Assembly (NCBI GenBank): GCA_015056315.1
Contig: SVGN01000021.1
Span: 1 to 42,447, forward strand
Direction of reading: 5' to 3'
From: Clostridiales bacterium
GTDB lineage: Bacteria > Bacillota > Clostridia > Christensenellales > Aristaeellaceae
Length of the DNA: 42,447 nucleotides
Position numbers and translations under genes: made by a program. Positions 16,076 to 36,291 of the stretch are shown piece after piece. Numbering within the stretch: position 1 is the first letter of the stretch; each line of letters starts with the position of its first letter. Under the pieces are notes generated by a model. It had not been told where the DNA came from. It saw only the letters and a program-made list of their open reading frames with translations, and did not search any database.

Positions 16076-17713
16076 ATGACGATCATCGATTTGCTCGAGC
16101 GCAATGCGTCGCTCTACACCAACGAGACTGCTTTGGTAGAGATCAACCCCGACCAGCCGGAGACCCGCCGCACCACCTGGCAGGAGTTCGAGCTGGTGGA
16201 GCCCACCCCCAAGGTGCGCCACTACCGCCGCGAGATCACCTGGGGCGTGTTCAACGAAAAAGCCAACCGTCTTGCCAATATGCTCACCCAGAACGGCATC
16301 GGCAAGGGCAAGAAGGTAGCCATTCTGCTGATGAACTGCATCGACTGGCTGCCCATTTATTTCGGCATCCTCAAGAGCGGCGCTCTGGCCGTACCGCTCA
16401 ATTTCCGTTACGCCTCCTCCGAGATCGAGTACTGCCTCAACCTGGCCGAGGCCGATGCGCTCATCTTCGGGCCGGAGTTCATCGGCCGTGTGGAGGGCAT
16501 CGCAGACAAGATCGGCCGCAGCCGCATGCTCATTTATCTGGGCGCAGGCTGCCCCGCCTTTGCCGATGATTACAACGACCTTACCTCCGAGTGCTCCGGC
16601 GTTTTCGCAGGCTGCCCCCTTACCGAGAACGATGATGCCGCCATCTATTTCTCCTCCGGCACCACCGGCTTCCCCAAGGCCATCCTGCACAAGCACCGCA
16701 GCCTGATCCACTCCTGCAAGGTGGAGCAGGCACACCATAGTCAGGGCCGCAGCGATTGCTTCCTGTGCATCCCGCCGCTGTACCACACCGGTGCCAAGAT
16801 GCACTGGTTCGGCAGCCTGCTGGCAGGCTCCAAGGCGGTCATTCTCAAGGGCACCCGCCCCGAGACCATCCTGAAGGCCGCCAGCGAGGAAAAGTGCACC
16901 ATCGTGTGGCTGCTGGTGCCGTGGGCGCAGGATATCCTTGCTGCGCTGGACCGCGGCGAGCTGAAGCTGGAGGATTACGAGCTCTCCCAGTGGCGGCTGA
17001 TGCACATCGGTGCCCAGCCCGTGCCCCAGAGCCTGATCCGCCGCTGGCTGGAGTACTTCCCCGATCAGGAATACGATACCAACTACGGTCTGAGCGAATC
17101 CATCGGCCCCGGCGCCGTGCACCTTGGCGTGGAGAATGTGCACAAGGTGGGCGCTATCGGCATCCCCGGCTACGGCTGGGAGACGAAGATCGTCCACCCC
17201 GACGGCACCCCTGTGGAGCGCGGCGATGTGGGCGAGCTGATCCTCAAGGGCCCCGGCGTGATGACCTGCTACTACAACGACCCCGCCGCCACCGCCGAGA
17301 CCCTCAAGGACGGCTGGCTCTACACCGGCGATATGGCCATGCAGGATGAGGACGGCTTCATCTATCTGGTAGACCGCAAGAAGGATGTGATCATCACCGG
17401 CGGCGAGAACCTCTACCCGGTGCAGATCGAAGACTTCCTTGCCTCCAACCCCAAGATCTGGGATGTGGCCGTGATCGGTCTGCCGGATCCCCGCCTGGGC
17501 GAGATCGCCACGGCGATCATCCAGCTGCACCCGGATGTGGAATGCAGCGAGGAGGAGATCAACGAGTTCTGCAAGACCCTGCCCCGCTACAAGCGCCCCC
17601 GCAAGATCATCTTTGCCGATGTGCCCCGCAACCCCACCGGCAAGATCGAAAAGCCCAAGCTGCGCAAGATGTACGGCGGCGAGGGCCTGGTAGCCAGCCA
17701 GAACAAGTCTTAA
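16076..17713 (+). CDS. AMP-dependent acyl/aryl-CoA ligase
   Basis: A 545-residue class I adenylate-forming enzyme that joins a carboxylic acid to CoA through an acyl-adenylate. The ATP-binding loop FSSGTTGFPKA, the NYGLSES block, the hinge motif DGWLYTGDMAMQDEDGF with DRKKDVI, and the C-terminal catalytic Lys in NPTGKIEKPKL are all intact. The acid substrate cannot be read from sequence; fatty, aryl or arylacetic acids are all possible. An insertion after the first helix (PTPKVRHYRREITWG, about residues 42-57) is unusual. It is the first gene of an operon with iorAB, a phenylacetate-CoA ligase and an ACT protein, so an aromatic acid is the most economical guess. Confidence 0.9.
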   Translation: MTIIDLLERNASLYTNETALVEINPDQPETRRTTWQEFELVEPTPKVRHYRREITWGVFNEKANRLANMLTQNGIGKGKKVAILLMNCIDWLPIYFGILKSGALAVPLNFRYASSEIEYCLNLAEADALIFGPEFIGRVEGIADKIGRSRMLIYLGAGCPAFADDYNDLTSECSGVFAGCPLTENDDAAIYFSSGTTGFPKAILHKHRSLIHSCKVEQAHHSQGRSDCFLCIPPLYHTGAKMHWFGSLLAGSKAVILKGTRPETILKAASEEKCTIVWLLVPWAQDILAALDRGELKLEDYELSQWRLMHIGAQPVPQSLIRRWLEYFPDQEYDTNYGLSESIGPGAVHLGVENVHKVGAIGIPGYGWETKIVHPDGTPVERGDVGELILKGPGVMTCYYNDPAATAETLKDGWLYTGDMAMQDEDGFIYLVDRKKDVIITGGENLYPVQIEDFLASNPKIWDVAVIGLPDPRLGEIATAIIQLHPDVECSEEEINEFCKTLPRYKRPRKIIFADVPRNPTGKIEKPKLRKMYGGEGLVASQNKS

Positions 17714-17810
17714 GAGAAGGGCCTGTGAGCGCTGCCCGTACCCGGCAGGGGCCAAGGCCTCTGCATTCTGCCCCCCTGACTATCCCCCCTTTTGAAAGGA
17801 ATACATCACC

Positions 17811-19541
17811 ATGAAAAAGCTTTTGATCGGCAATCAGGCGGTTGCCATGGGTCTCTACCACGGCGGTCTGGGTCTGGCCTCCAGCTACCCCGGCACCCCC
17901 TCCACCGAGATCACCGAATTCCTTGCCATGAACGATGATATCCACACCGAGTGGGCCCCCAACGAGAAGGTGGCCATGGAGGTGGCCTTCGGTGCCTCTC
18001 TGGCCGGCATGCGCTCCACCTGCGCCATGAAGCATGTGGGCCTCAATGTGGCTGCCGACCCGCTGTTCACCCTGTCCTACACCGGCGTGAACGGCGGCAT
18101 GGTCATCTGCGTGGCAGACGACCCCGCCATGCACTCCTCCCAGAACGAGCAGGACAGCCGCCACTACGCCATCGCGGCCAAGGTGCCCATGCTGGAGCCT
18201 GCCGACTCTGCCGAGGCCTATGCCTTTGCCAAGAGCGCCTTTGCCCTTTCCGAAAAGTACGATACCCCCGTGCTGCTGCGCATGTGCACCCGCATCGCCC
18301 ACAGCCAGAGTATCGTGGAGCTGGGCGAGCGTGAGGCCGTCGAGGTAAAGCCCTACGAAAAGAACCCCGGCAAGTACATCATGATGCCCGGCAACGCCAA
18401 GAAGCGCCACCCGGTGGTGGAGGAGCGCACCGCCGCCCTTGCCGAAATGGCCAACGATTGCATCTACAACACCGTGGAGATGGCTGCCGACAACAAGATC
18501 GGCATCATCACCTCCGGCACCTCCTACCTGTATGTAAAGGAAGTGATGGGGGAGAAGGCCAGCATCCTCAAGATCGGCATGCCCAACCCCCTGCCCGGGA
18601 AGCTCATCCGCGATTTCGCCGCCAAGGTGGAAAAGCTCTATGTGATCGAAGAGCTGGATCCCGTCATCGAGAGCTATGTGCGCTCTCTGGGCATCGAAGT
18701 GGTGGGCAAGGAGCTGTTCAGCCCCATCGGTGAGTTCTCCCAGCAGACCATCGCCGCTGCTTTCGGCCTGCCCTCTCCCGCCAGCATCGCTGCCGACTCC
18801 GCCGTGCCCGGCCGCCCGCCCATGATGTGCGCAGGCTGCCCCCACCGTGGTCTGTTCTACACCCTTGCCAAAAACAAGATCACCGTTCTGGGCGATATCG
18901 GCTGCTACACCCTGGGCGCTGTGCCGCCGCTGAATGCGCTGGATTCCACCCTGTGCATGGGTGCCTCTGTCTCCGGCCTGCACGGCTTCAACAAGGCCCG
19001 CGGCGAGGAAGCCGAGGGCAAGACCGTAGCCGTGATCGGCGATTCCACCTTCATGCATTCCGGCATGACGGGTCTGGTGAACGTGGCCTACAACGCCACC
19101 AACTCCACCGTCATCATTCTGGATAACTCCATCACCGGCATGACCGGCCACCAGCAGAACCCCACCACCGGCTACAACATCAAGGGCGACCCCGCCGCCA
19201 AGGTGGATCTGGAAGCCCTCTGCCGGGCCCTGGGCATCGCCCGTGTGCGTGTGGTGGATCCCTACGACCTGAAGGCCTGCGAGACCGCCGTGAAGGAAGA
19301 GCTGGCTGCCAAGGAGCCTTCCGTCATCATCTCCCGCCGCCCCTGCGTGCTGCTCAAGACCGTCAAGGCCAAGCCCGCTCTGGTCATCGATCCGGAGAAG
19401 TGCAAGAGCTGCAAGCGCTGCATGAGCCTGGGCTGCCCCGCCATCAGCATGCACGGCGGCAAGGCCCGCATCGATGCCACCCTGTGCGTGGGCTGCGGCG
19501 TTTGCAAGCAGCTGTGCGCCTTTGACGCCATCGGCGAGTAA
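17811..19541 (+). CDS. iorA: Indolepyruvate:ferredoxin oxidoreductase, alpha subunit
   Basis: A 576-residue subunit of the enzyme that interconverts aryl-pyruvates (indole-, phenyl-, hydroxyphenylpyruvate) and arylacetyl-CoA with ferredoxin and CO2. The N-terminal pyrimidine-binding domain begins with AVAMGLYHGG and SYPGTPSTEI. The thiamine diphosphate domain has GDIGCYTLG and GDSTFMHSGMTG...NSITGMTGHQQNP. The last 55 residues carry two [4Fe-4S] motifs, CKSCKRCMSLGCP and CVGCGVCKQLC. Family length is normal. A GAAAGGA ribosome site precedes the start, and the gene is followed after 15 bp by the beta subunit. Direction in vivo depends on ferredoxin redox state: aromatic amino acid fermentation, or reductive synthesis of aryl-pyruvates from arylacetates. 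Confidence 0.96.
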   Translation: MKKLLIGNQAVAMGLYHGGLGLASSYPGTPSTEITEFLAMNDDIHTEWAPNEKVAMEVAFGASLAGMRSTCAMKHVGLNVAADPLFTLSYTGVNGGMVICVADDPAMHSSQNEQDSRHYAIAAKVPMLEPADSAEAYAFAKSAFALSEKYDTPVLLRMCTRIAHSQSIVELGEREAVEVKPYEKNPGKYIMMPGNAKKRHPVVEERTAALAEMANDCIYNTVEMAADNKIGIITSGTSYLYVKEVMGEKASILKIGMPNPLPGKLIRDFAAKVEKLYVIEELDPVIESYVRSLGIEVVGKELFSPIGEFSQQTIAAAFGLPSPASIAADSAVPGRPPMMCAGCPHRGLFYTLAKNKITVLGDIGCYTLGAVPPLNALDSTLCMGASVSGLHGFNKARGEEAEGKTVAVIGDSTFMHSGMTGLVNVAYNATNSTVIILDNSITGMTGHQQNPTTGYNIKGDPAAKVDLEALCRALGIARVRVVDPYDLKACETAVKEELAAKEPSVIISRRPCVLLKTVKAKPALVIDPEKCKSCKRCMSLGCPAISMHGGKARIDATLCVGCGVCKQLCAFDAIGE

Positions 19542-19556
19542 GGAGGAATAGCAGCA

Positions 19557-20129
19557 ATGAAAACTACCAGCATTATGATCGTCGGCGTCGGCGGGCAGGG
19601 CAGCCTGCTGGCCTCCAAGCTGCTGGGGCAGCTTCTGGTGGATGAGGGCTACGATGTAAAGGTGAGCGAAGTGCACGGCATGAGCCAGCGCGGCGGCTCC
19701 GTTGTTACCTATGTCCGCTACGGCGAAAAGGTCTACTCTCCCATCGTTACCGAGGGCGAGGCAGACTACATCATTTCCTTTGAGAAGCTGGAAGCGGCCC
19801 GCTATGCCGCCTTCCTCAAGACCGATGGCCGGATGGTGGTCAACACCCAGGAGATCGACCCCATGCCCGTCATCATCGGCGCGGCCACCTACCCCACCGA
19901 TGTGCTCAGCGAGCTGAAGCAGAAGGGCCTCAACATCGACGATTTCGACGCCCTCACCCCCGCGGTGGAGGCTGGCTCCTCCAAGGCGGTCAACATCGTG
20001 CTGATGGGCCGCTTTGCCAAGTATGTGGATATTCCCTACGAGCGCTGGATCGCCGCCATCGAAAAGGCAGTAAAGCCCAAGTTTGTGGAGATGAACAAGC
20101 GCGCTTTCGAGCTGGGCTACCGCTCCTGA
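19557..20129 (+). CDS. iorB: Indolepyruvate:ferredoxin oxidoreductase, beta subunit
   Basis: A 190-residue gamma-domain-like subunit that completes the IorAB complex. The opening IMIVGVGGQGSLLASKLL is the typical glycine-rich start of the 2-oxoacid:acceptor oxidoreductase gamma/beta family, followed by EVHGMSQRGGSV and the AADYI-like block EADYIISFEKLEAAR. The start has a strong TAAGGAGG. It sits directly after iorA and 48 bp before the paaK-type gene, so the operon is tight. Confidence 0.95.
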   Translation: MKTTSIMIVGVGGQGSLLASKLLGQLLVDEGYDVKVSEVHGMSQRGGSVVTYVRYGEKVYSPIVTEGEADYIISFEKLEAARYAAFLKTDGRMVVNTQEIDPMPVIIGAATYPTDVLSELKQKGLNIDDFDALTPAVEAGSSKAVNIVLMGRFAKYVDIPYERWIAAIEKAVKPKFVEMNKRAFELGYRS

Positions 20130-20177
20130 GGCTGCACTGCCTTCCCCGCAATAACAACAGAACTGAGGCGAGCACCA

Positions 20178-21485
20178 ATGGAACAACGATACTACCAGCC
20201 CGAGATCGAGACCATGCCCGTTGAGGAGATCAAAAAGCTCCAATCCGAAAAGCTGGTCAAGCAGGTCAGGCATGTATACGACCATGTACCCTACTACCGC
20301 GCCCTGATGGAAGAAAGAGGCGTAAAGCCCGAAGACATCAAGGGCATCGAAGATATTGCCAGACTGCCCTTCCTGACCAAGGCCGATCTTCGGGAAGCCT
20401 ATCCCACCGGTCTTTTGGCGGTTCCCCAGAAGGATTGCGTCCGCATCCACTCCACTTCCGGCACCACCGGCCGCCGTGTGGTGGCTTTCTACACCCAGCA
20501 CGACGTGGATCTGTGGGAGGATTGCTGTGCCCGTGCGATTATGGCTACCGGCTGCACTGATGAGGATGTGTGCCAGGTCGCTTACGGTTATGGCTTGTTC
20601 ACCGGTGGCTCCGGTCTGCATGGCGGTTCCCATAAAGTGGGCTGCCTTACGCTGCCTATGTCTTCCGGCAATACCGAGCGGCAGATCCAGTTTATGATGG
20701 ATCTGGGCGCTACCCTTCTCTGCTGCACCCCCTCCTATGCCGCCTACCTCGGCGAGAGCCTGAAGGAAATGGGCTACAAGCCCGAGGATAACAAGCTCAA
20801 GGCCGGTATCTTCGGTGCCGAACCCTGGACCGAGGAAATGCGCCGTGGCATTGAAGCGTCTCTGGGCATCAAGGCCTACGATATCTACGGCCTTACCGAG
20901 ACCTCCGGCCCCGGTGTGGCCTTCGAGTGCAGCGAGCAGAAGGGTATGCACATCAACGAAGACCACTTCTATGCCGAGATCATCGATCCCGATACCGGCG
21001 AGGTGCTGCCCGAGGGCAGCAAGGGCGAGCTGGTATTCACCAGCCTGGACAAGGAAGCCTTCCCCCTGCTGCGGTACCGTACCCGCGATATCTGCGTGCT
21101 CACCCGTGAGCCCTGCGCCTGCGGCCGTACCCACATCCGTATGTCCAAGCCCATGGGCCGCAGCGATGATATGCTCATCATCCGCGGTGTGAATGTGTTC
21201 CCCAGCCAGATCGAGACCGTTCTGCTCAAGGAGGGCTACAGCCCCAACTACCAGATCGTGCTGGATCGCGTGAATAACAACGATACCTTCGATGTAAACG
21301 TGGAAATGAACCCCGACCAGTTCGTGGATACCGTCGGCGGCCTTACCAAGCAGGAAAAGGCGCTGGCTGCCGCCATGAAGACCATGCTGGGCATCAACCC
21401 CACGGTGCATCTGGTCTCGCCCAAGAGCATCGTGCGCAGCGAGGGCAAGGCCGTCCGCGTGATCGACAAGCGCAAGCTGTTCTGA
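20178..21485 (+). CDS. paaK: Phenylacetate-CoA ligase (PaaK type)
   Basis: A 435-residue adenylate-forming ligase that activates phenylacetate or a related arylacetate (indoleacetate, hydroxyphenylacetate) to its CoA thioester. PaaK-branch motifs are visible: YDHVPYYRALMEERGV near residues 35-50, the phosphate loop STSGTTGRRV (about 96-105), YGLTETSGPG, and the C-terminal MGRSDDMLIIRGVNVFPSQIE. The CACGRTH segment matches the Cys-rich loop of this branch. The product, arylacetyl-CoA, is the substrate or product of IorAB encoded just upstream. Together they could turn arylacetates from the environment into aryl-pyruvates for aromatic amino acids, or run the other way and conserve energy. The downstream ACT gene suggests allosteric or regulatory control. 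Confidence 0.93.
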   Translation: MEQRYYQPEIETMPVEEIKKLQSEKLVKQVRHVYDHVPYYRALMEERGVKPEDIKGIEDIARLPFLTKADLREAYPTGLLAVPQKDCVRIHSTSGTTGRRVVAFYTQHDVDLWEDCCARAIMATGCTDEDVCQVAYGYGLFTGGSGLHGGSHKVGCLTLPMSSGNTERQIQFMMDLGATLLCCTPSYAAYLGESLKEMGYKPEDNKLKAGIFGAEPWTEEMRRGIEASLGIKAYDIYGLTETSGPGVAFECSEQKGMHINEDHFYAEIIDPDTGEVLPEGSKGELVFTSLDKEAFPLLRYRTRDICVLTREPCACGRTHIRMSKPMGRSDDMLIIRGVNVFPSQIETVLLKEGYSPNYQIVLDRVNNNDTFDVNVEMNPDQFVDTVGGLTKQEKALAAAMKTMLGINPTVHLVSPKSIVRSEGKAVRVIDKRKLF

Positions 21486-25306: not shown

Positions 25307-25474
25307 GGTGTTTTCTTTGCATAAGGAAACAAACGACCCAAATCGCCGTTTTCAAGAACCGGTACAAAAAACCGCCGTTTTGAAAAAATGTTCGGGTTTT
25401 TACCGGAAGATCGGCCACGGCAAGCCGGAAAAGAACGGCTGCCAAGAACCATGCAAAGTGGAGGAACCGTACGT
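25307..25474 (+). other. Long untranslated leader of purE
   Basis: About 168 nt between the predicted transcript start and the purE ATG. It holds two copies of CGCCGTTTT (about 25343-25351 and 25371-25379), and weak pairing of TTTTCAA with TTGAAAA. It does not match the purine, ZTP or THF riboswitch signatures that I know, and no terminator hairpin with a T-run is evident. The gap between the HAD start (25097) and this promoter shows AT-rich sequence and no gene. Confidence 0.45.
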
Positions 25475-25969
25475 ATGAAAAAAGTCGGCATCGTTATGGG
25501 CAGCGACAGCGACCTGCCCGTTGTAGAAAAAGCGGTCAACATGCTGGAGGCGCTGGGCGTGCCCTGCGAGACCCATGTGTATTCCGCCCACCGCACCCCC
25601 GAGGAGGCCCGCCTGTTCGCCCTCAATGCCCGCAAGAACGGCTTCGGTGCCATTATTGCCGCAGCGGGCATGGCCGCCCATCTGGCCGGTGCCATTGCCG
25701 CCAACACCACCCTGCCGGTGATCGGCATCCCCTGCAAGTCTTCTGTGCTGGATGGCATGGATGCCCTGCTCTCCACCGTTATGATGCCTCCGGGCATCCC
25801 CGTTGCCACGGTGGCCATCGGCGGCGGTGCCAATGCGGCGCTGCTGGCAGCCCAGATCATCGCCGTGGAGGATGCGGAGCTGGCCGCCCGTCTGGACGAG
25901 AAGCGCGCCAAGGATGCCGCCGTGGTGCTGGAGAAGGACGCCGCCATCTGCGAGAAATACAGCCGATAA
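25475..25969 (+). CDS. purE: N5-carboxyaminoimidazole ribonucleotide mutase
   Basis: A 164-residue enzyme of the class I PurE fold, which moves the carboxyl group of N5-CAIR to carbon 4 to give CAIR in purine synthesis. Signature segments are MGSDSDLPV at the N-terminus, SAHRTPEE with the conserved active-site His, IAAAGMAAHLAG, and VMMPPGIPVATV. The start has GTGGAGGAACC upstream. It is the first gene of the purine cluster. No purK or purC is in the window, so their genes must be elsewhere if the pathway is complete. Confidence 0.96.
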   Translation: MKKVGIVMGSDSDLPVVEKAVNMLEALGVPCETHVYSAHRTPEEARLFALNARKNGFGAIIAAAGMAAHLAGAIAANTTLPVIGIPCKSSVLDGMDALLSTVMMPPGIPVATVAIGGGANAALLAAQIIAVEDAELAARLDEKRAKDAAVVLEKDAAICEKYSR

Positions 25970-26000: not shown

Positions 26001-27425
26001 ATGGGTGGCTTCTTTGGCGCAACGCTCAAGCGCAATGCCATCTCAGACGTGTTCTTCGGTACCGACTACCATTCCCACCTGGGTACCCGCCGGGCGGGTA
26101 TGGCAGCCTTCGACACGGAGATCGGTCTGCAGCGCGAGATCCACAATATTTCCAACTCTCCCTTCCGCACCAAGTTTGAGCATATTTTCGACGAGATGAC
26201 GGGCAACTCCGCCATCGGCTGCATCAGCGACTGGGATCCCCAGCCCCTGCTGATCCGCTCCAACCTGGGCACCTATGCCATCAGCATCGTGGGTGTGGTG
26301 AACAACGCCGATGAGCTGATCCAGAATTTCCTTTCCTTCAGCGGCGGGCATTTCGATGCCATGACCGGCGGCCGCATCAACAACACCGAGCTGGTGGCCG
26401 CCATGATCAACCAGAAGAGCAACTTTGCCGAGGGCATCCGCTTTGCGCAGGATGTGATCAAGGGCACCGCCAACATCCTCATCCTCAAGGAGGATGGCAA
26501 CCTGATCGCCGCCCGCGATAAGCTGGGCCGCATCCCGGTGGCCATCGGCAAGAGCGAGGATGGCTACTGCGCCTCCTTCGAATCCTTCGCCTACCAGAAG
26601 CTGGGCTTTGAGGATGTAAAGGAGCTGGGCCCCGGCGAGATCGTGGAGCTGAGCCCCGACGGCATGACCCAGCTCAAAGCGCCCGGCAGCGAGATGCGCA
26701 TGTGCTCCTTCCTCTGGTCCTACTACGGTTACCCCACCTCCACCTACGAGGGCGTGAACGTAGAGGTGATGCGCTACCGCAACGGTGCCATCATGGCCGA
26801 TAACGACAAGGCCAACGGCGTGGCTCAGGAGATCGATTATGTGGGCGGTGTGCCCGATTCCGGCACGCCTCACGCCATCGGCTACGCCAACAAGAGCGGC
26901 AAGCATTTTGCCCGCGCCTTTATCAAATACACTCCCACCTGGGCCCGCAGCTTTACCCCCACCCATCAGGAGGAGCGCAACCGGGTGGCCAAGATGAAGC
27001 AGATCCCCGTGCATGCGCTCATCAAGGATAAAGACCTGCTCTTCGTAGACGACTCCATCGTGCGCGGCACCCAGCTGCGGGAGACCGTCGAGTTCCTGTA
27101 CGATAACGGTGCCAAGGCGGTGCACATCCGCTCTGCCTGCCCGCCCATTATGTACGGCTGCAAGTACCTGAACTTCTCCCGCTCCAACAGCGATATGGAT
27201 CTGATCGCCCGCCGGGTGATCATGGAGCTGGAGGGCGATGAGGGCATGAAGCATCTGGATGAGTACAGCGATGCCAAGACCGAGCGCGGCCAGAACCTGC
27301 GCAAGGCCATTTGCGAGAAGATGCACTTTGCCTCGCTGGAGTTCCAGTCCATCGAGGGCCTTGTGGAGGCCATCGGCATCGAGCCCTGCAAGCTCTGCAC
27401 CTATTGCTGGAACGGCAAGGAGTAA
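26001..27425 (+). CDS. purF: Amidophosphoribosyltransferase-like PurF lacking the N-terminal catalytic Cys
   Basis: A 474-residue homologue of the first enzyme of purine synthesis, which makes phosphoribosylamine from PRPP and ammonia released from glutamine. The C-terminal phosphoribosyltransferase half is intact: the PRPP loop LLFVDDSIVRGTQ is complete. Cysteines in RMCSFLW, ACPPIMYGC and EPCKLC are placed like the [4Fe-4S] ligands of Bacillus PurF. The N-terminal half has the class II glutaminase fold (HSHLGTRRAGMA, NNADEL), but it begins MGGFFGATLK, with Gly where the nucleophile Cys must be, and there is no propeptide. It should therefore be unable to hydrolyse glutamine by the usual route and may use free ammonia or another donor. 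An AAGGAG site precedes the ATG; no Cys is available by choosing another start. It lies 31 bp after purE. Confidence 0.9.
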   Translation: MGGFFGATLKRNAISDVFFGTDYHSHLGTRRAGMAAFDTEIGLQREIHNISNSPFRTKFEHIFDEMTGNSAIGCISDWDPQPLLIRSNLGTYAISIVGVVNNADELIQNFLSFSGGHFDAMTGGRINNTELVAAMINQKSNFAEGIRFAQDVIKGTANILILKEDGNLIAARDKLGRIPVAIGKSEDGYCASFESFAYQKLGFEDVKELGPGEIVELSPDGMTQLKAPGSEMRMCSFLWSYYGYPTSTYEGVNVEVMRYRNGAIMADNDKANGVAQEIDYVGGVPDSGTPHAIGYANKSGKHFARAFIKYTPTWARSFTPTHQEERNRVAKMKQIPVHALIKDKDLLFVDDSIVRGTQLRETVEFLYDNGAKAVHIRSACPPIMYGCKYLNFSRSNSDMDLIARRVIMELEGDEGMKHLDEYSDAKTERGQNLRKAICEKMHFASLEFQSIEGLVEAIGIEPCKLCTYCWNGKE

Positions 27426-27662: not shown

Positions 27663-28706
27663 ATGCACAACCAGTCCAAGTCCGACAGCTACGCCGCCGC
27701 TGGCGTGGATATCACCGCAGGCTACAAGGCCGTAGAACTGATGAAAAAGCACATCGCCCGCACCATGACCGCAGGCGTTTGCTCCGATGTGGGCGGCTTC
27801 GGCGGCCTGTTCGAGCTGGATCTGACCGGCATCACCCAGCCGGTGCTGGTAAGCGGCACCGACGGCTGCGGCACCAAGGTAAAGCTGGCCATGCTGATGG
27901 ATAAGCACGATACCATCGGTATCGATGCGGTGGCCATGTGCGTGAACGATATCATCTGCTGCGGCGCAAAGCCCCTGTTCTTCCTGGATTACATCGCCTG
28001 CGGCAAGAACTACCCCGAAAAGATCGCCCAGATCGTTTCCGGCGTGGCGGAGGGCTGCGTGCAGTCCGGCGCTGCCCTCATCGGCGGCGAGACCGCCGAG
28101 CACCCCGGCCTGATGCCCGAAGATGACTACGACGTGGCAGGCTACTGCACCGGCGTTGTGGATAAGGCCAAGATCATCGATAACAAGGCCATGCAGCCCG
28201 GCGATGTGATCATCGCCCTGCCCTCCACCGGCGTGCACTCCAACGGCTTCTCCCTGGTGCGCAAGGTGTTCGACGTGGAAAACGCCGATCTCACCAGCCC
28301 TGTAAGTGAGCTGGGCGGCAAGAGCCTGGGCGAAACGCTGCTCACCCCCACCCGCATTTACGTAAAGCCCGTGCTGGCCCTCAACGAGCAGGTAAAGATC
28401 AAGGGCATCAGCCACATCACCGGCGGCGGCTTCTACGAGAACATCCCGCGCTCCATCCCCGAGGGCCTGGGTGCCAGGATCGACAAGGCCTCCGTTAAGG
28501 TGCTGCCTATCTTCGACCTGATCGCCAAGACCGGCAACATCAGCGAGCGCGACATGTACAACACCTTCAACATGGGCGTTGGCATGAGCATCGTCGTCAG
28601 CAGGGAGGATGCCGACAAGGCCATCGAGATCCTCAAGCAGAACGGCGAGGATGCCTACCTGATCGGCGAGATCGTTGCCTCCGAGGAGCAGATCACCATC
28701 TGCTGA
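27663..28706 (+). CDS. purM: Phosphoribosylformylglycinamidine cyclo-ligase (AIR synthetase)
   Basis: A 347-residue ATP-dependent enzyme that closes FGAM to aminoimidazole ribotide. It has the normal length and order of motifs: SYAAAGVDITAGYKAVE at the start, the Gly-rich GGFGGLFEL, VSGTDGCGTKVKLA, MCVNDIICCGAKPLFFLDY, IGGETAEHPG, and the late HITGGGFYENIPR. AAAAGGAGG precedes the ATG. It begins the second part of the purine cluster, after the repeat-containing gap; spacing to purN is 38 bp. Confidence 0.97.
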   Translation: MHNQSKSDSYAAAGVDITAGYKAVELMKKHIARTMTAGVCSDVGGFGGLFELDLTGITQPVLVSGTDGCGTKVKLAMLMDKHDTIGIDAVAMCVNDIICCGAKPLFFLDYIACGKNYPEKIAQIVSGVAEGCVQSGAALIGGETAEHPGLMPEDDYDVAGYCTGVVDKAKIIDNKAMQPGDVIIALPSTGVHSNGFSLVRKVFDVENADLTSPVSELGGKSLGETLLTPTRIYVKPVLALNEQVKIKGISHITGGGFYENIPRSIPEGLGARIDKASVKVLPIFDLIAKTGNISERDMYNTFNMGVGMSIVVSREDADKAIEILKQNGEDAYLIGEIVASEEQITIC

Positions 28707-28744: not shown

Positions 28745-29380
28745 ATGAAAAACATCGCTGTGCTGGTCTCCGGCGGCGGCACCAACCTGCAGGCGCTCAT
28801 CGACGCGGAAAAACGCGGCGAGCTGGGCCCGGGCAAGCTGGCGGCGGTCATCTCCTCCAAGGAGGGCGCATATGCGCTGGAGCGTGCCGCCAAGGCGGGC
28901 ATCCCCGGCTATGTGCTGGCCCGCAAGAGCTTTGCCGACAGCCGCGCCATGACCGTGGCGCTGGTGGAACAGCTCCGCCAATTGAACATCGATCTGGTGG
29001 TGCTGGCAGGCTGCATGGTCATCTTTACCGAAGAACTGACCAATGCATACCCCAATGCCATCATCAACGTGCACCCGGCGCTGATCCCGTCCTTCTGCGG
29101 CAAGGGTTTCTACGGCCTGCATGTGCACGAGGCCGCCCTCAGCTACGGCGTTAAGCTCTCCGGTGCCACGGTGCACTTCGTCAGCGAGGAGTGCGACGGC
29201 GGCCCCATCATCGCCCAGAAGGCTGTGGCCGTACTGGAGGGCGATACCCCCGAAACGCTGCAAAAACGCATCATGGAAGAAGCCGAATGGAAGCTGCTTC
29301 CCGAAGCGGTGAAACTTTTCTGCCAAGGCCGTCTCCGTGTGGAGGGCCGCATCGTCAAGATCGAACAGGAGGAAGCCTAA
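28745..29380 (+). CDS. purN: Phosphoribosylglycinamide formyltransferase, 10-formyl-THF dependent
   Basis: A 211-residue GAR transformylase of the PurN type, which transfers a formyl group from 10-formyltetrahydrofolate. The N-terminal VLVSGGGTNLQALID binds the nucleotide phosphate. The active-site residues are N108 and H110 in IINVHPALIPSF and D151 in EECDGGPI. The formyl donor would come from Fhs, encoded at the end of the same cluster. The stop codon touches the start of the next gene. Confidence 0.96.
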   Translation: MKNIAVLVSGGGTNLQALIDAEKRGELGPGKLAAVISSKEGAYALERAAKAGIPGYVLARKSFADSRAMTVALVEQLRQLNIDLVVLAGCMVIFTEELTNAYPNAIINVHPALIPSFCGKGFYGLHVHEAALSYGVKLSGATVHFVSEECDGGPIIAQKAVAVLEGDTPETLQKRIMEEAEWKLLPEAVKLFCQGRLRVEGRIVKIEQEEA

Positions 29381-30100
29381 ATGAACATCTACCAGATCCA
29401 GACCATGGCTCAGCGCCTTGAAGGCAACACCTACCCCGGCCGCGGCATCGTGATCGGCAAGACCGCCGATGGTAAGAAGAGCGCCGTTGCTTACTTCATC
29501 ATGGGCCGCAGTGCCAACAGCCGCAACCGCATCTTTACCGAGAAGGACGGTGCCATCTTCACCGAGCCCTTCGATGCCTCCAAGGTGGAGGATCCTTCCC
29601 TGATCATCTACGCTGCCCTGCGCAACTACGAAAACAAGCTCATCGTTACCAACGGCGACCAGACCGATACCATCTGGGAGGGCCTGAAGGCCGGCAAGAG
29701 CTTCTCCGAAGCCCTCACCAGCCGCGAGTTCGAACCCGATGCCCCCAACCTGACCCCCCGCATCAGCGGTATGCTCACCTATGCCGATAACAGCTTCACC
29801 TACGAGATGAGCATTCTGAAGAGCGCCGATGCCGAAGGCACCGCCTGCAACCGCTACACCTTCTCCTACCCCAGCCTGAACGGTCTGGGCCACTTCATCC
29901 ACACCTATGTGTGCGATGGCAACCCCATCCCCACCTTCCAGGGCGAGCCCGAGCGGGTGGCCATCCCCGACGACATCGATGCCTTTACCACCGAAGTGTG
30001 GAATGCGCTGGATGAGAACAACAAGATCTCCCTCTACGTGCGCTATACCGACCTTGCCACCGGCGAGAGCGAGAGCCGCATGCTGAACAAGAATGCTTAA
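29381..30100 (+). CDS. purO: IMP cyclohydrolase, PurO type
   Basis: A 239-residue protein matching the archaeal-type PurO family, which closes FAICAR to IMP. Family features are the opening NTYPGRGIVIGKT, the AVAYFIMGRSANSRNR segment, and the four-layered alpha/beta composition with no relation to the PurH cyclohydrolase domain. Its ATG follows the purN stop with no gap. The next gene encodes a stand-alone AICAR transformylase, so the two together replace bifunctional PurH. PurO was first described in methanogens; this copy has ordinary neighbouring codon use and looks long settled in the cluster. Confidence 0.9.
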   Translation: MNIYQIQTMAQRLEGNTYPGRGIVIGKTADGKKSAVAYFIMGRSANSRNRIFTEKDGAIFTEPFDASKVEDPSLIIYAALRNYENKLIVTNGDQTDTIWEGLKAGKSFSEALTSREFEPDAPNLTPRISGMLTYADNSFTYEMSILKSADAEGTACNRYTFSYPSLNGLGHFIHTYVCDGNPIPTFQGEPERVAIPDDIDAFTTEVWNALDENNKISLYVRYTDLATGESESRMLNKNA

Positions 30101-30113
30101 GGAGTGTGCCAAC

Positions 30114-31298
30114 ATGAAAGAGTTTGAACTGAAGTACGGCTGCAACCCCAACCAGAAGCCTGCCCGCATCTACATGCACGACGGCTCCGACCTGCCTGTT
30201 ACCATTCTCTCCGGCCGCCCCGGCTTTATCAACTTCCTGGATGCCTTCAACTCCTGGCAGCTGGTCAAGGAGCTGAAGGAAGCCCTGGGCCTGCCCGCCG
30301 CCGCCTCCTTCAAGCATGTAAGCCCCACCTCCGCTGCGGTGGGCACCAAGCTGAGCGATAAGCTCAAGAAGGCCTGCTTTGTAGACGACATCGAGGGCCT
30401 GGATGATTCTCCCCTGGGCTGCGCCTACGCCCGTGCCCGCGGCACCGACCGTATGTGCTCCTTCGGCGATTGGGTAGCCCTCAGCGATGTGTGCGATGTG
30501 ACCACCGCCACCATGATCAAGCGTGAGGTATCCGACGGCGTTATCGCTCCCGGCTACGAGCCCGAGGCGCTGGAGATCCTCAAGACCAAGCGCAAGGGCA
30601 ACTACAACATCGTGCAGATCGACCCCGACTACGTGCCCTCCCTGGCCGAGCGCAAGCAGGTGTTCGGCATCACCTTTGAGCAGGGCCGCAACAATTTCGA
30701 GATCAACCGCGAGCTGCTCCAGAACGTGGTCACCGCCAACAAGGATATGCCCGAGTCCGCTGTCCGCGACCTGATCGTGGCCCTGATCACCCTCAAGTAC
30801 ACCCAGTCCAACTCCGTGTGCTACGCGGTGGATGGTCAGGCCATCGGCGTGGGTGCCGGTCAGCAGAGCCGTATCCACTGCACCCGTCTGGCCGGCGGCA
30901 AGGCCGATACCTGGCAGCTGCGCCAGCACGACAAGGTGCTGGGTCTGCCCTTCAAGCCCGAGCTGGGCCGCCCCGACCGCGATAACGTGATCGACGGCTA
31001 CATCAACCACAACGAAGAAGATGTGTGCGCCGAGGGCGTGTGGCAGAACTACTTCACCCAGCGCCCCGAGCCCTTCACCAAGGAGGAGCAGCGCGCTTAC
31101 CTGGATACCATCAGCGGTGTTGCCCTGGGCTCCGATGCCTTCTTCCCCTTCCCCGACAACATCCAGCGTGCCCGCATGAGCGGCGCTACCTACATTGCCG
31201 AGCCCGGCGGCTCCATCCGTGATGATCTGGTCATCGCCGAGTGCGATAAGCTGAACATCTCCATGTGCTTCACCGGCATGCGCCTGTTCCACCACTAA
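30114..31298 (+). CDS. Stand-alone AICAR formyltransferase
   Basis: A 394-residue protein corresponding to the transformylase half of PurH, without the cyclohydrolase half. It transfers a formyl group from 10-formyl-THF to AICAR, giving FAICAR for PurO. Recognisable blocks are ELKYGCNPNQKPARIY, SFKHVSPTSAAVG (the Lys-His active-site pair), DGVIAPGYEPEALEILK, and GVGAGQQSRIHCTRLAG. The start at 30114 has AAGGAG upstream; it opens 13 bp after purO. Homologues of this short form are known in several anaerobes. The symbol purH is withheld because the fused protein of that name is absent. Confidence 0.94.
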   Translation: MKEFELKYGCNPNQKPARIYMHDGSDLPVTILSGRPGFINFLDAFNSWQLVKELKEALGLPAAASFKHVSPTSAAVGTKLSDKLKKACFVDDIEGLDDSPLGCAYARARGTDRMCSFGDWVALSDVCDVTTATMIKREVSDGVIAPGYEPEALEILKTKRKGNYNIVQIDPDYVPSLAERKQVFGITFEQGRNNFEINRELLQNVVTANKDMPESAVRDLIVALITLKYTQSNSVCYAVDGQAIGVGAGQQSRIHCTRLAGGKADTWQLRQHDKVLGLPFKPELGRPDRDNVIDGYINHNEEDVCAEGVWQNYFTQRPEPFTKEEQRAYLDTISGVALGSDAFFPFPDNIQRARMSGATYIAEPGGSIRDDLVIAECDKLNISMCFTGMRLFHH

Positions 31299-31324
31299 TT
31301 CTGCCAGCGGAGGGTATCAGAACC

Positions 31325-32599
31325 ATGAAAGTACTGGTCGTAGGCGGCGGCGGGCGTGAACACGCCATTATCCGCAAGATCAAGGAAAACCCCACGGTTG
31401 AACAAATTTTCGCGCTCCCCGGCAACGGCGGCATCGCTGCCGATGCCACCTGCGTGGGCATCTCCGCAACGGATGTGCCCGCCATCGTGGCCTTTGCCAA
31501 GGAGAATGCGATCGATTATGCGGTCGTCGCCCCTGACGATCCGCTGGTGCTGGGCTGCGTGGATGCTCTCCAGGCGGAGGGCTTCCCCTGCTTCGGCCCC
31601 AGCGCTGCCGCTGCCGCCATCGAGGGCAGCAAGGTCTTCTCCAAGAACCTGATGAAGAAGTACAATATCCCCACCGCTGCCTACGAGGTCTTTACCGATG
31701 AGGCCGCCGCCGTGGAATACCTCAAGAATGCCCCCATGCCCACCGTCATCAAGGCGGATGGCCTTGCGCTGGGCAAGGGCGTCATCATCGCCCAGAGCTT
31801 TGAGGAGGCCGCCGAGGCGGTGCACTCCATGATGAGCGATAAGGTCTTCGGTAAGAGCGGCGACCAGATCGTTATTGAAGAGTTCCTCACCGGCCCCGAG
31901 GTATCCGTGCTGGCCTTTACCGACGGCATCACCGTCAAGCCCATGGTCTCCTCTATGGACCACAAGCGGGCAGGCGATAACGACACCGGCCTCAACACCG
32001 GCGGCATGGGCACCATCGCCCCCAACCCCTACTACACCGAGGCTGTTGCCAAGGAGTGCATGGAGACCATCTTCCTGCCCACCGTAAGCGCCATGAACGC
32101 TGAGGGCCGCACCTTCAAGGGCTGCCTGTACTTCGGCCTGATGCTCACGCCCAATGGCCCCAAGGTGATCGAGTACAACTGCCGCTTCGGCGACCCGGAG
32201 ACCCAGGTGGTGCTGCCCCTTCTGGAGAGCGACCTTCTCACCATCATGCAGGCGGTCACCACCCAGACCCTCAGCGAGACCGAAGTGAAGTTTGCAGACA
32301 AGCACGCCTGCTGCGTCATTATGGCCAGCAAGGGCTACCCCACCAAGTACGACAAGGGCTTTGAGATCACCATCCCCGATGAGATCGCCAAGAACGTGTT
32401 CGTAGCCGGTGCCGCCCTGAAGGATGGCAAGCTGGTGACCAGCGGCGGCCGCGTGCTGGGTGCCACCGCCATCGCCGATACGCTGGGCGGGGCCATCGAG
32501 AGCGCCTACGGTCTGGTAGACAAGATCTGTTTTGATAACGCCTATTACCGCCACGACATCGGCGCACGCGCCATGCAGGCTGCGGGGGAGGAAAAGTAA
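31325..32599 (+). CDS. purD: Phosphoribosylamine-glycine ligase (GAR synthetase)
   Basis: A 424-residue ATP-grasp ligase that joins phosphoribosylamine and glycine. It starts MKVLVVGGGGREHAI, the standard dinucleotide-like fold, and has the ATP-grasp blocks PTVIKADGLALGKGV and VIEYNCRFGDPETQVVLPLL. The start at 31325 has GGAGGG upstream. Its TAA overlaps the ATG of purL (TAATG), indicating translational coupling. Confidence 0.97.
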   Translation: MKVLVVGGGGREHAIIRKIKENPTVEQIFALPGNGGIAADATCVGISATDVPAIVAFAKENAIDYAVVAPDDPLVLGCVDALQAEGFPCFGPSAAAAAIEGSKVFSKNLMKKYNIPTAAYEVFTDEAAAVEYLKNAPMPTVIKADGLALGKGVIIAQSFEEAAEAVHSMMSDKVFGKSGDQIVIEEFLTGPEVSVLAFTDGITVKPMVSSMDHKRAGDNDTGLNTGGMGTIAPNPYYTEAVAKECMETIFLPTVSAMNAEGRTFKGCLYFGLMLTPNGPKVIEYNCRFGDPETQVVLPLLESDLLTIMQAVTTQTLSETEVKFADKHACCVIMASKGYPTKYDKGFEITIPDEIAKNVFVAGAALKDGKLVTSGGRVLGATAIADTLGGAIESAYGLVDKICFDNAYYRHDIGARAMQAAGEEK

Positions 32600-35500
32600 T
32601 GGTATACCGTATTTACGTAGAGAAGAAACCCGAACTGGCAAACGAGGCCCGCGCACTGCTCTCCGATGCCAATGCGTTCCTTGGCATCAAGGGCCTGGAG
32701 AAGGTTCGCCTCATCAACCGTTACGATGTGGAGAACATTACCGAAGAATTGTTCGATTATGCTGTGGGCACCGTATTCTCCGAGCCCCAGCTGGATATGA
32801 CCTCCCGCCAGCTGAGCGTGGAGGGCGCTGCTGCCGTGTTTGCCGTGGAGTACCTGCCCGGCCAGTTCGACCAGCGTGCCGACTCCGCCGCCCAGTGCAT
32901 CCAGATCATCTCTCAGGGCGAGCGCCCCACCGTGCGCACCGCCAAGGTGTACGCCCTCTACGGTACCCTGACCGATGAGCAGATCGCCGAGATCCGCAAG
33001 TATGTGATCAACCCGGTGGAAGCCCGCGAGGCTACCCTGGATATGCCCGAGACCCTCAAGACCACCTACGCCATCCCCACCGAGGTAGAGACCCTGACCG
33101 GCTTCACCAAGCTGGATCGCGAGGGCCTGGAGGCCTTCGTCAAGAAGTACGGCCTGGCCATGGATGCCGACGATGTAGCCTTCTGCCAGAACTACTTCCT
33201 CAGCGAAGAACGCGACCCCACCATCACCGAGATCCGCATGATCGATACCTACTGGTCCGATCACTGCCGCCATACCACCTTCCTCACCATCATCGATGAT
33301 GCCCATTTCGAGGATGAGCTGCTGCAGAAGGCCTACGAAGAGTACATGCAGACCCGCAAGGATCTGAACCGGGTAAAGCCCGTCTGCCTGATGGATCTGG
33401 CCACCATCGCCGTGCGCTACCTGAAGAAGGAAGGCAAGCTGGATAAGCTGGACGAGTCCGAAGAGATCAACGCCTGCACGGTGAAGATCGATGTGGAAGT
33501 GGATGGCGTTACCGAGCCCTGGCTGCTGCTGTTCAAGAACGAGACCCATAACCACCCCACCGAGATCGAGCCCTTCGGCGGCGCTGCCACCTGCATCGGC
33601 GGTGCCATCCGCGATCCCCTGTCCGGCCGCAGCTATGTGTACGGCGCGATGCGCGTTACCGGCGCTGCCGACCCCACCCGCCCCGTCAGCGAGACCATCA
33701 AGGGCAAGCTGCCCCAGCGCAAGCTGGTCACCACCGCTGCTGCGGGCTACTCCAGCTACGGCAACCAGATCGGTCTGGCTACCGGCATCGTGGATGAGCT
33801 GTACCACGATGGCTACGCTGCCAAGCGTATGGAGATCGGTGCGGTGATCGCCGCCACCCCTGCCGAGAATGTGCGCCGCGAGGTGCCCGCCCCCGGCGAT
33901 ATCGTTATCCTGCTGGGCGGCAGCACCGGCCGTGATGGCTGCGGCGGCGCTACCGGCTCCTCCAAGGCCCACACCGAGCAGTCTCTGGAGACCTGCGGCG
34001 CAGAGGTGCAGAAGGGCAACGCCCCCGAGGAGCGCAAGCTCCAGCGCCTGTTCCGCAACGGCGATGCCTGCCGCATGATCAAGCGCTGCAACGACTTTGG
34101 TGCTGGCGGCGTATCCGTTGCCATCGGCGAGCTGGCCGATGGTCTGGAGATCGACCTGAACGCTGTGCCCAAGAAGTACGACGGTCTGGATGGCACCGAG
34201 CTGGCCATCTCCGAGTCTCAGGAGCGCATGGCCGTTGTGGTGGAAGCCAAGGATGTGGAAGCCTTCCTGGCCCTGGCTGCCAAGGAGAACCTGCAGGCCT
34301 GCCCCGTGGCTGAGGTCAAGGCCGAGCCCCGCCTGCGCATGAACTGGAACGGCAAGACCATCGTGGATCTGAGCCGCGAGTTCCTCAACTCCAACGGTGC
34401 CGAGAAGCACATCTCCATCGATGTGGAGGCCGCCAAGGATTTCCGCAAGGAAGTGAAGGGCACCTTCACCGAGAACTACACCGCTCTGGCTGGCGACCTG
34501 AACATCTGCTCCAAGCGCGGCCTCAGCGAGCGTTTCGACTCCACCATCGGTGCCGGTACCGTGCTGATGCCCTTCGGCGGCAAGAACCAGCTGACCCCCA
34601 TCCAGGCCATGGTGCAGAAGATCTCTGTTGAGAAGAAGCACACCAACGATTGTTCCTTCATGTCCTGGGGCTATAACCCCTTCCTGACCGAGAAGAGCCC
34701 CTACCACGGCGCTTATCTGGCTGTGGTGGAGAGCGTCTGCAAGCTGATCGCCACCGGCGCTTCCTTCGAGGATGTATACCTTACCTTCCAGGAGTATTTC
34801 CAGCGCCCCGGCAAGGATTCCACCCGCTGGGGCCAGCCTCTGGCTGCGCTGCTGGGTGCCTTCAAGGCTCAGAAGGAGCTGGGCATCGGCTCCATCGGCG
34901 GCAAGGACTCCATGAGCGGCTCCTTCGAGAGCCTGGATGTGCCCCCCACGCTGGTCTCCTTCGCTGTGACCACCGGCAAGGTGAGCGATGTGGTCTCCCC
35001 CGAGTTCAAAAAGGCCGGTAACAAGGTGGTCGTGCTCGCTCCCGAGTACGATGCGGAGGGCCTGCCCACCACCGAGAGCCTTGTCAAGCTGTTCGATACC
35101 GTGCATGGCCTCATGCAGAGCGGCAAGGCCGTGGCCTGCTACACCCCCGGCATGGGCGGCATCGCCGAGGCCGTAATGAAGATGGGCTTCGGCAACGGCC
35201 TGGGCTTCCAGTTCGCCGATGATGTGACCGTAGAAGAGCTGTTCGGCTACAGCTACGCCGCCTTCGTTGTGGAAGTGACCGGCGATGTGGAAGGCGCACG
35301 CCTGCTGGGTACCGTTACCGACGACGGCAAGCTGACCCTGAAGGGCGAGAGCCTGGCTGTGGAAAGCCTGCTGAACACCTACGAGAACAAGCTGGAGAAG
35401 GTCTACAGCTGCAATATTCCCGAGAGCGGCTCCAAGATGGAGAACTTCTCCAATGCTGCCACCAGCTGGCCCAAGCCCGCTGTGAAGGTGGCCCGCCCCA

Positions 35501-36291
35501 AGGTGCTGATCCCCGCCTTCCCCGGCACCAACTGCGAGTTCGACAGCGCCAAGGCTGTGGAGGATGCTGGCGCAGAGGCCAAGATCATGGTCATCCGCAA
35601 CCTGACCGCTTCCGCCATTGCCCAGAGCGTGGAGGACTTTGCCAATGAGCTGAAGACCGCCCAGATGGTGTTCATCCCCGGCGGCTTCTCCGGCGGCGAC
35701 GAGCCCGACGGCAGCGGCAAGTTCATTACCGCTTTCTTCCGCAACGCCGCCATCCGCGAGGGCGTTACCGAGCTGCTGGAGAAGCGCGACGGCCTTATGT
35801 GCGGTATCTGCAACGGCTTCCAGGCGCTCATCAAGCTGGGTCTGGTGCCCTACGGCAAGATCATCGATACCGATGAGAACTGCCCCACCCTTACCTTCAA
35901 CACCATCGCCCGCCACCAGAGCCGCATCGTGCGCACCCGCATCGCCTCCAACAAGAGCCCCTGGCTGAGCCTGATGAATGTGGGCGACGTGGTCAACGTG
36001 CCCATCTCCCACGGCGAGGGCCGCTTCCTGGCCAGCGAAGAGCTGATCCGTCAGCTGGCTGCCAATGGCCAGATCGCCACCCAGTATGTGGATCTTGATG
36101 GCAACGCCACCGGCGATGTGCACTTCAACCCCAACGATTCCCTGTACGCCATCGAGGGCATCACCTCTCCCGATGGCCGCGTGCTTGGCAAGATGGGCCA
36201 CAGCGAGCGCGTGGGCGCGGGCCTGTACAAGAACGTGCCCGGCAACTACGACATCCGCATGTTTGAAGCTGCTGTAAAGTACTTCAAGTGA
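32599..36291 (+). CDS. purL: Single-chain phosphoribosylformylglycinamidine synthase
   Basis: A 1230-residue protein combining the PurS-like, PurL synthetase and PurQ glutaminase parts. It makes FGAM from FGAR, ATP and glutamine. Residues 1 to about 90 are the PurS-like part. The central part has the [17 protein letters not shown] substrate site, the GGKDSMSG block, and two synthetase halves. The C-terminal glutaminase (from about 965) has the nucleophile C1071 in GICNGFQAL and the His-Glu site in [13 protein letters not shown]. Unlike the PurF of this cluster, the glutaminase is therefore intact. This clostridial single-chain layout differs from the separate PurS/PurQ/PurL of Bacillus. It is coupled to purD by a TAATG overlap and followed by fhs after 19 bp. 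Confidence 0.96.

Follow-up and report, generated by a model that had tools for sequence, protein, structure and literature searches.

A PurF homologue without the glutaminase site and its probable role as an ammonia-using entry enzyme of purine synthesis in gut Clostridia

The PurF-Like Gene and Its Product

The window considered here, i.e., the whole analysed stretch of 42,447 nucleotides (contig SVGN01000021.1 of assembly GCA_015056315.1, Clostridiales bacterium, Aristaeellaceae), carries a purine operon harboring, immediately upstream of purM, a gene for a PurF-like protein devoid of a glutaminase site. This cysteine-less type is designated D below, and canonical PurF exceeding the cut-off of the NCBIfam model TIGR01134 is designated C. 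The D protein of the window begins with MGGFFGATLK; the Gly noticed in a preliminary description of the locus at the position of the nucleophilic Cys of PurF was confirmed by the reading of the frame and by an 81-row alignment. The protein scores 165.6 bits with TIGR01134, below the curated cut-off of 350, and displays 24–30% identity to canonical PurF; its top sequence matches in PDB are PurF of Bacillus subtilis and Arabidopsis.

The ATG of the gene is preceded by AAGGAG, a motif resembling a ribosome-binding site and ending about 10 nt 5' of it, and by an in-frame TGA two codons upstream; hence, D cannot gain a Cys from any start located further upstream. Since the Cys1 column is free of Cys in all 81 aligned rows, a sequencing error is excluded along with a wrong start. 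A decaying pseudogene was likewise ruled out by the ratios of nonsynonymous to synonymous substitution rates (dN/dS; 0.107 and 0.097 against two relatives) and by the frame being full-length in nearly all relatives. Resolved by domain, dN/dS in two comparisons was 0.11–0.13 for the N-terminal and 0.08 for the C-terminal domain. Overall, D is under purifying selection.

Residues of the Glutaminase and Phosphoribosyltransferase Halves

The alignment comprised 81 D sequences (that of the window and 80 relatives with 74–92% identity, drawn from at least 578 relatives) and 15 C sequences (14 clostridial and one from Escherichia coli K-12), with the canonical positions given in E. coli numbering. 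The Cys1 column of D is occupied by Gly in 80 rows and by Ser in one. The losses extend to other positions: Arg26 is replaced by Leu in 81/81 rows, residues 73–76 are deleted from every D row, V, I or T stands in the place of Asn101 throughout, and Asp at position 127 is found in 0/81 rows. By contrast, Cys1, Arg26, Arg73, Asn101, and Asp127 are all present in 15/15 C rows. The last four of these are taken by us to be the glutamine-site residues of E. coli PurF. Thus, the preliminary description was correct in calling the protein devoid of the catalytic cysteine, but understated the case, since the remaining glutamine site is lost as well.

The other half of the protein is conserved, and the earlier claim that the phosphoribosyl pyrophosphate (PRPP) site and the presumptive Fe-S cysteines are kept holds. 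The PRPP-binding signature DDSIVRGT is present in all D rows; the Lys and Arg residues which we assume to belong to the flexible loop on the PRPP side, Lys326, Lys349, and Arg332 (E. coli numbering), are retained in 81, 81, and 80 of the 81 rows, respectively. The columns of the presumed Fe-S ligands C235, C387, and C466 are invariant (81/81), and that of C469 is conserved in 80/81 rows (one gap). Relative to canonical PurF, D carries an insertion (about 27 residues, near aa 410–437). The predicted structure of D matched the overall two-domain fold of PurF, with the N-domain predicted as an N-terminal nucleophile (Ntn) fold, mostly with a predicted local distance difference test score (pLDDT) near 90.

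In the tree of D and C sequences, all 52 sampled D rows lie on one side of a single branch with a support of 100/100; repeated recent loss of Cys within ordinary PurF is, accordingly, not supported.

Distribution of the Two Types across Genomes

The occurrence of D, C, and purM was assessed across the family in 131 genomes, each of which, except that of the window, is at least 90% complete; the lists for the counts were compiled manually from the match tables. D was found in 56 genomes, C over the cut-off in 72, and purM over the cut-off in 113, so the set is split into 14 genomes with both types, 42 with D only, 58 with C only, and 17 with neither. Each of the 113 genomes possessing purM carries C, D, or both, with D as the sole type in 42; among the 18 genomes without purM, 17 have neither type and one has C. 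The two types alternate at close phylogenetic range: the genus of the window includes six D-only genomes, six C-only genomes, and one lacking C, D, and purM, and six genera contain D-only and C-only species intermixed.

The genome of the window (3.09 Mb, 101 contigs) is 80% complete, and the search with the PurF profile returned from it no canonical PurF. The PurF model matches only two of its frames: D and one of 618 aa, aligned in its glutaminase half, which by length and matched region is presumably GlmS. Hence, a second purF with Cys, the search for which had been advised in the preliminary description, was found neither in this incomplete genome nor, over the cut-off, in 42 of the 56 D-bearing genomes of the family.

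At the class level (343 genomes), 68 genomes harbor both types, 33 D only (31 with purM), 198 C only, and 44 neither (38 of them without purM); genomes with C over the cut-off numbered 266 as tabulated vs. 267 by the search tally. In a sample of 249 genomes of the phylum, D was detected in 17, including 12 from other classes, each of the latter with at least one further match; one genome from another class (G643) possesses two D genes and an additional PurF-type match. Six class genomes have purM and neither D nor C: four (G201, G328, G371, G432) show PurF matches below the cut-off (1e-76 to 1e-99), G223 a weaker one (1.8e-44), and G399 a GlmS-level match only. Among the genomes tallied as D-only, G147 has a canonical C-terminal fragment on a separate contig and may, thus, hold both types, and G291 (class set) carries a canonical match below the cut-off. 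D is fragmented or partial in G093, G107, G459, G162, and G489. In genomes of the genus g106, canonical PurF is present and the PurM matches are weak (about 1e-15 to 1e-32), so their PurM may be unusual or missing.

Operon and Gene Neighborhood

In the window, D is situated between purE and purM, followed by purN and the other purine genes up to purL (Table 1) and then by the gene for formate-tetrahydrofolate ligase.

Table 1. Purine genes of the window and sequence features of the D protein (AICAR, 5-aminoimidazole-4-carboxamide ribonucleotide; FGAM, formylglycinamidine ribonucleotide; IMP, inosine monophosphate).
Feature	Position	Strand	Evidence
purE	25388..25969	+	TIGR01162; profile matched from aa 33 onward, start probably near 25475
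PurF-like protein without glutaminase site (D)	26001..27425	+	Open reading frame, 474 aa; TIGR01134 165.6 bits; alignment to E. coli PurF
MGGFFG N-terminus, Gly replacing Cys1	26001..26018	+	Open reading frame and alignment
GCISDWDPQP replacing canonical GHVRY glutamine loop (E. coli Arg73), 8-residue deletion	26217..26246 (approximate)	+	Alignment
PRPP-binding signature DDSIVRGT, aa 350–357	27048..27071	+	81/81 rows
Four presumed Fe-S ligand cysteines C235, C387, C466, C469	26703..27407 (span)	+	Same columns as the Cys shared by all 14 clostridial C
purM	27663..28706	+	TIGR00878
purN	28745..29380	+	TIGR00639
IMP cyclohydrolase-like protein (PurO-like)	29381..30100	+	PF07826; below NCBIfam cut-offs for archaeal PurO
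AICAR formyltransferase	30093..31298	+	NF005492
purD	31265..32599	+	TIGR00877; profile match from aa 21
purL, single-chain FGAM synthase	32599..36291	+	TIGR01857

This arrangement is widespread: purM adjoins D in 43 of the 56 D-bearing family genomes (33/42 of the D-only ones and 10/14 of those with both types), and it lies immediately 3' of D in 77 of the 79 close loci counted (one of the 80, L060, was left out). In four C-only congeners fetched out of a total of six, the order is purE, a frame of purC size (its identity established in one case), C, and purM. Since this order matches, D holds the operon slot of C; the gene content of D-type and C-type purine operons is also largely the same. 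The single-contig genome G362, lacking C, carries purE, purC, D, purM, a gene for a PurN/PurO-like protein, purB, AICAR formyltransferase, purD, and purL consecutively.

D resides outside the operon in 13 of the 56 family genomes. Such genes mostly show 50–58%, and up to 66%, identity to D of the window, and their neighbors vary. In nine purM-bearing family genomes, a non-operon D is the sole PurF homologue over the cut-off; hence, C has apparently been replaced by D on more than one occasion. In a few genomes (L026, L061, L123, L124, L125 / G046, G233, G320), C and D are adjacent, which suggests joint action or redundancy.

Several further observations concern the surroundings of these genes. 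In the window (29381–31298), the separate PurO-like cyclohydrolase and the stand-alone AICAR formyltransferase, not a bifunctional PurH, finish IMP synthesis; in the single-contig D-only genome (L122:11715–13145), a 477-aa frame with a PurN N-terminus and a BLAST match to the PurO-like protein probably represents a PurN-PurO fusion. One non-operon D (L131:5092–9763, G284) begins 28 bp past a carB-type gene for the large chain of carbamoyl phosphate synthase, another ammonia user, and in the D-only genome G173 (L141:2188–5586), D is directly downstream of glmS. Scanned against Rfam at gathering scores, the window gave 0 matches and hence no sign of a purine riboswitch; ARAGORN found 0 tRNAs in it. 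Elsewhere in the window (16076–21485), genes for an acyl-CoA ligase, the alpha and beta subunits of indolepyruvate ferredoxin oxidoreductase, and a phenylacetate-CoA-ligase-like protein follow one another, perhaps constituting an aryl-acid fermentation cluster.

Possible Function and Source of Nitrogen

The losses in the sequence, the kept PRPP site, the predicted fold, the operon slot, and the occurrence of C or D wherever the family genomes have purM are matters of observation. Because the purM-bearing genomes of the family all possess C or D, the two types share the operon slot, and a single-contig genome carries purE to purL with D and no C, D very probably forms 5-phosphoribosylamine (PRA) in the stead of PurF. 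Its phosphoribosyltransferase half and presumed Fe-S ligands are kept, whereas the nucleophile and the glutamine-binding residues are lost, so D should not take nitrogen from glutamine. We infer that it would catalyze the reaction PRPP + NH3 -> PRA + pyrophosphate, with NH3 entering from the cytosol, perhaps via the old glutamine pocket serving as an open port. D would then resemble an ammonia-using Cys mutant of E. coli PurF made permanent: upon substitution of Ala or Ser for this Cys, the E. coli enzyme loses the use of glutamine but still accepts ammonia (Mei and Zalkin 1989, cited in Brown et al. 2011, PMC3261824). According to a 2025 paper, PRPP amidotransferase uses ambient NH3, and a published scheme, as described in a figure legend, has external NH3 entering from the glutamine site (PMC12017579). 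Overall, it is likely that D makes PRA from PRPP, replacing canonical PurF, most likely with free cytosolic NH3; many gut Clostridia probably use free ammonia, not glutamine, at the first step of purine synthesis.

Certain findings weigh against this interpretation. The residues D22, Y23, H24, S25, H26, H48, R56, D77, and N127 are invariant in 51/51 D rows (of the 52 sampled, D_L141, short at its start, was left out), and such conservation of the N-domain exceeds what a bare ammonia port would seem to need. C accompanies D in 14/131 family and 68/343 class genomes, so D cannot be regarded as a plain substitute for C in many species. The presence of ammonium transporter genes is not linked to the D-only state (21/42 D-only, 32/58 C-only, 13/14 with both, 5/17 with neither). 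Finally, the absence of C mostly rests on draft assemblies, that of the window being the 80% complete one.

As an alternative, PRA could be made by D with ammonia supplied in trans by a separate glutaminase protein, as in split amidotransferases; the existence of split glutaminase/synthase pairs provides a precedent, and the single cases of D beside the carB-type gene and glmS are in line with it. However, the fetched purine operons showed no additional glutaminase gene, the gene sets of both operon types being largely equal; the neighbors of non-operon D vary (10 neighboring proteins scanned); and the stand-alone glutaminase PF04960 occurs in 1/131 family genomes only, the one possessing both D and C, class I glutaminases lying outside this survey. 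This makes a partner glutaminase improbable. Similarly unlikely is that the N-domain has been rebuilt for another purpose, i.e., for using another amide donor, binding an allosteric ligand, or serving structurally, with NH3 or the new donor feeding the phosphoribosyltransferase site. The invariant DYHSH, H48, R56, D77, and N127, at most of which canonical sequences differ, and the confidently predicted Ntn fold speak for such a rebuilding, but no particular ligand or donor suggests itself, the conservation may be structural, and the N-domain is under slightly looser constraint than the C-domain.

It is far less probable that D is a regulator or another phosphoribosyltransferase, with PRA coming by another route in D-only species. 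The coexistence of D with C and the D genes outside the operon would be compatible with this, as would the PurF-independent formation of PRA in Salmonella hisA mutants; still, as the same source describes it, that route relieves the thiamine requirement, yet PurF-less strains need purines (PMC3485032). Moreover, D is present in all 42 purM-bearing family genomes that lack C over the cut-off, and it often holds the operon slot of PurF. An annotation or assembly artefact, whereby a Cys-encoding start further upstream or another copy of purF was missed, might be suspected in a genome as incomplete and fragmented as that of the window, but it is refuted by the in-frame TGA, by the loss common to all 81 rows, and by the D-only state recurring in a single-contig genome and in 42/56 D-bearing family genomes.

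Among the roles that the preliminary description had left to choose from, the synthesis of PRA without glutamine fits the co-occurrence, the operon position, and the residues; "another role" has little likelihood in genomes with D as the sole homologue, and limited tests revealed no ammonia-donating partner. A broader reading is that a large group of Clostridia swapped PurF more than once (operon and non-operon D) for an ammonia-specific PRPP-aminating enzyme as their only purine entry, with an N-domain rebuilt around a DYHSH pocket possibly admitting or sensing ammonia; its chances as a whole fall slightly short of even.

Comparison with Known Systems

D shares with canonical PurF of the B. 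subtilis type (EC 2.4.2.14) the two-domain fold, the PRPP signature, the loop Lys/Arg, the four Fe-S ligand columns, and the place in the purine operon; it differs in the lack of the nucleophilic Cys, the glutamine-site residues, and the glutamine loop, in the insertion, and in the sub-cut-off score. Beta-lactam and carbapenam synthetases were found among the fold matches of D. These enzymes possess an Ntn-type N-domain without glutaminase activity; to our knowledge, their other half is unrelated to phosphoribosyltransferases, and they do not use ammonia. The glutaminase class of carbamoyl phosphate synthetase I is presumably unrelated to that of PurF. This vertebrate enzyme, likewise derived from an amidotransferase, has lost the glutaminase Cys (Ser in human) and uses free ammonia (PMC4655335, PMC7657897), so it offers a parallel in the mode of operation only, the reaction being different.

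Another comparable system, by its published description, is crenarchaeal PurF', a homologue lacking the N-terminal Cys and encoded near purine genes, for which ammonia-dependent activity was proposed as one possibility (Brown et al. 2011, PMC3261824). In the same text, however, each Crenarchaeon also has a Cys-bearing PurF beside PurF', whereas D is the sole homologue over the cut-off in 42/131 genomes of the family. No description of a bacterial Cys-less PurF was found among the titles and abstract openings listed by the literature searches, most subscription journals being outside their scope. The new part, therefore, seems to be D as the sole homologue, since a Cys-less PurF with the ammonia hypothesis was published already in 2011.

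Implications

In standard accounts, the committed step of purine synthesis depends on glutamine. Should D be the only enzyme making PRA, many gut Clostridia would draw the nitrogen for this step directly from ammonia, tying their purine synthesis to the gut ammonia pool. In this case, D-only species should resist glutamine analogues at the PRA step, and annotations or metabolic models would have to be corrected wherever D is treated as a usual amidophosphoribosyltransferase. D would also serve as a natural experiment on whether an Ntn amidotransferase can do without its glutaminase, comparable with carbamoyl phosphate synthetase I and its different glutaminase domain.
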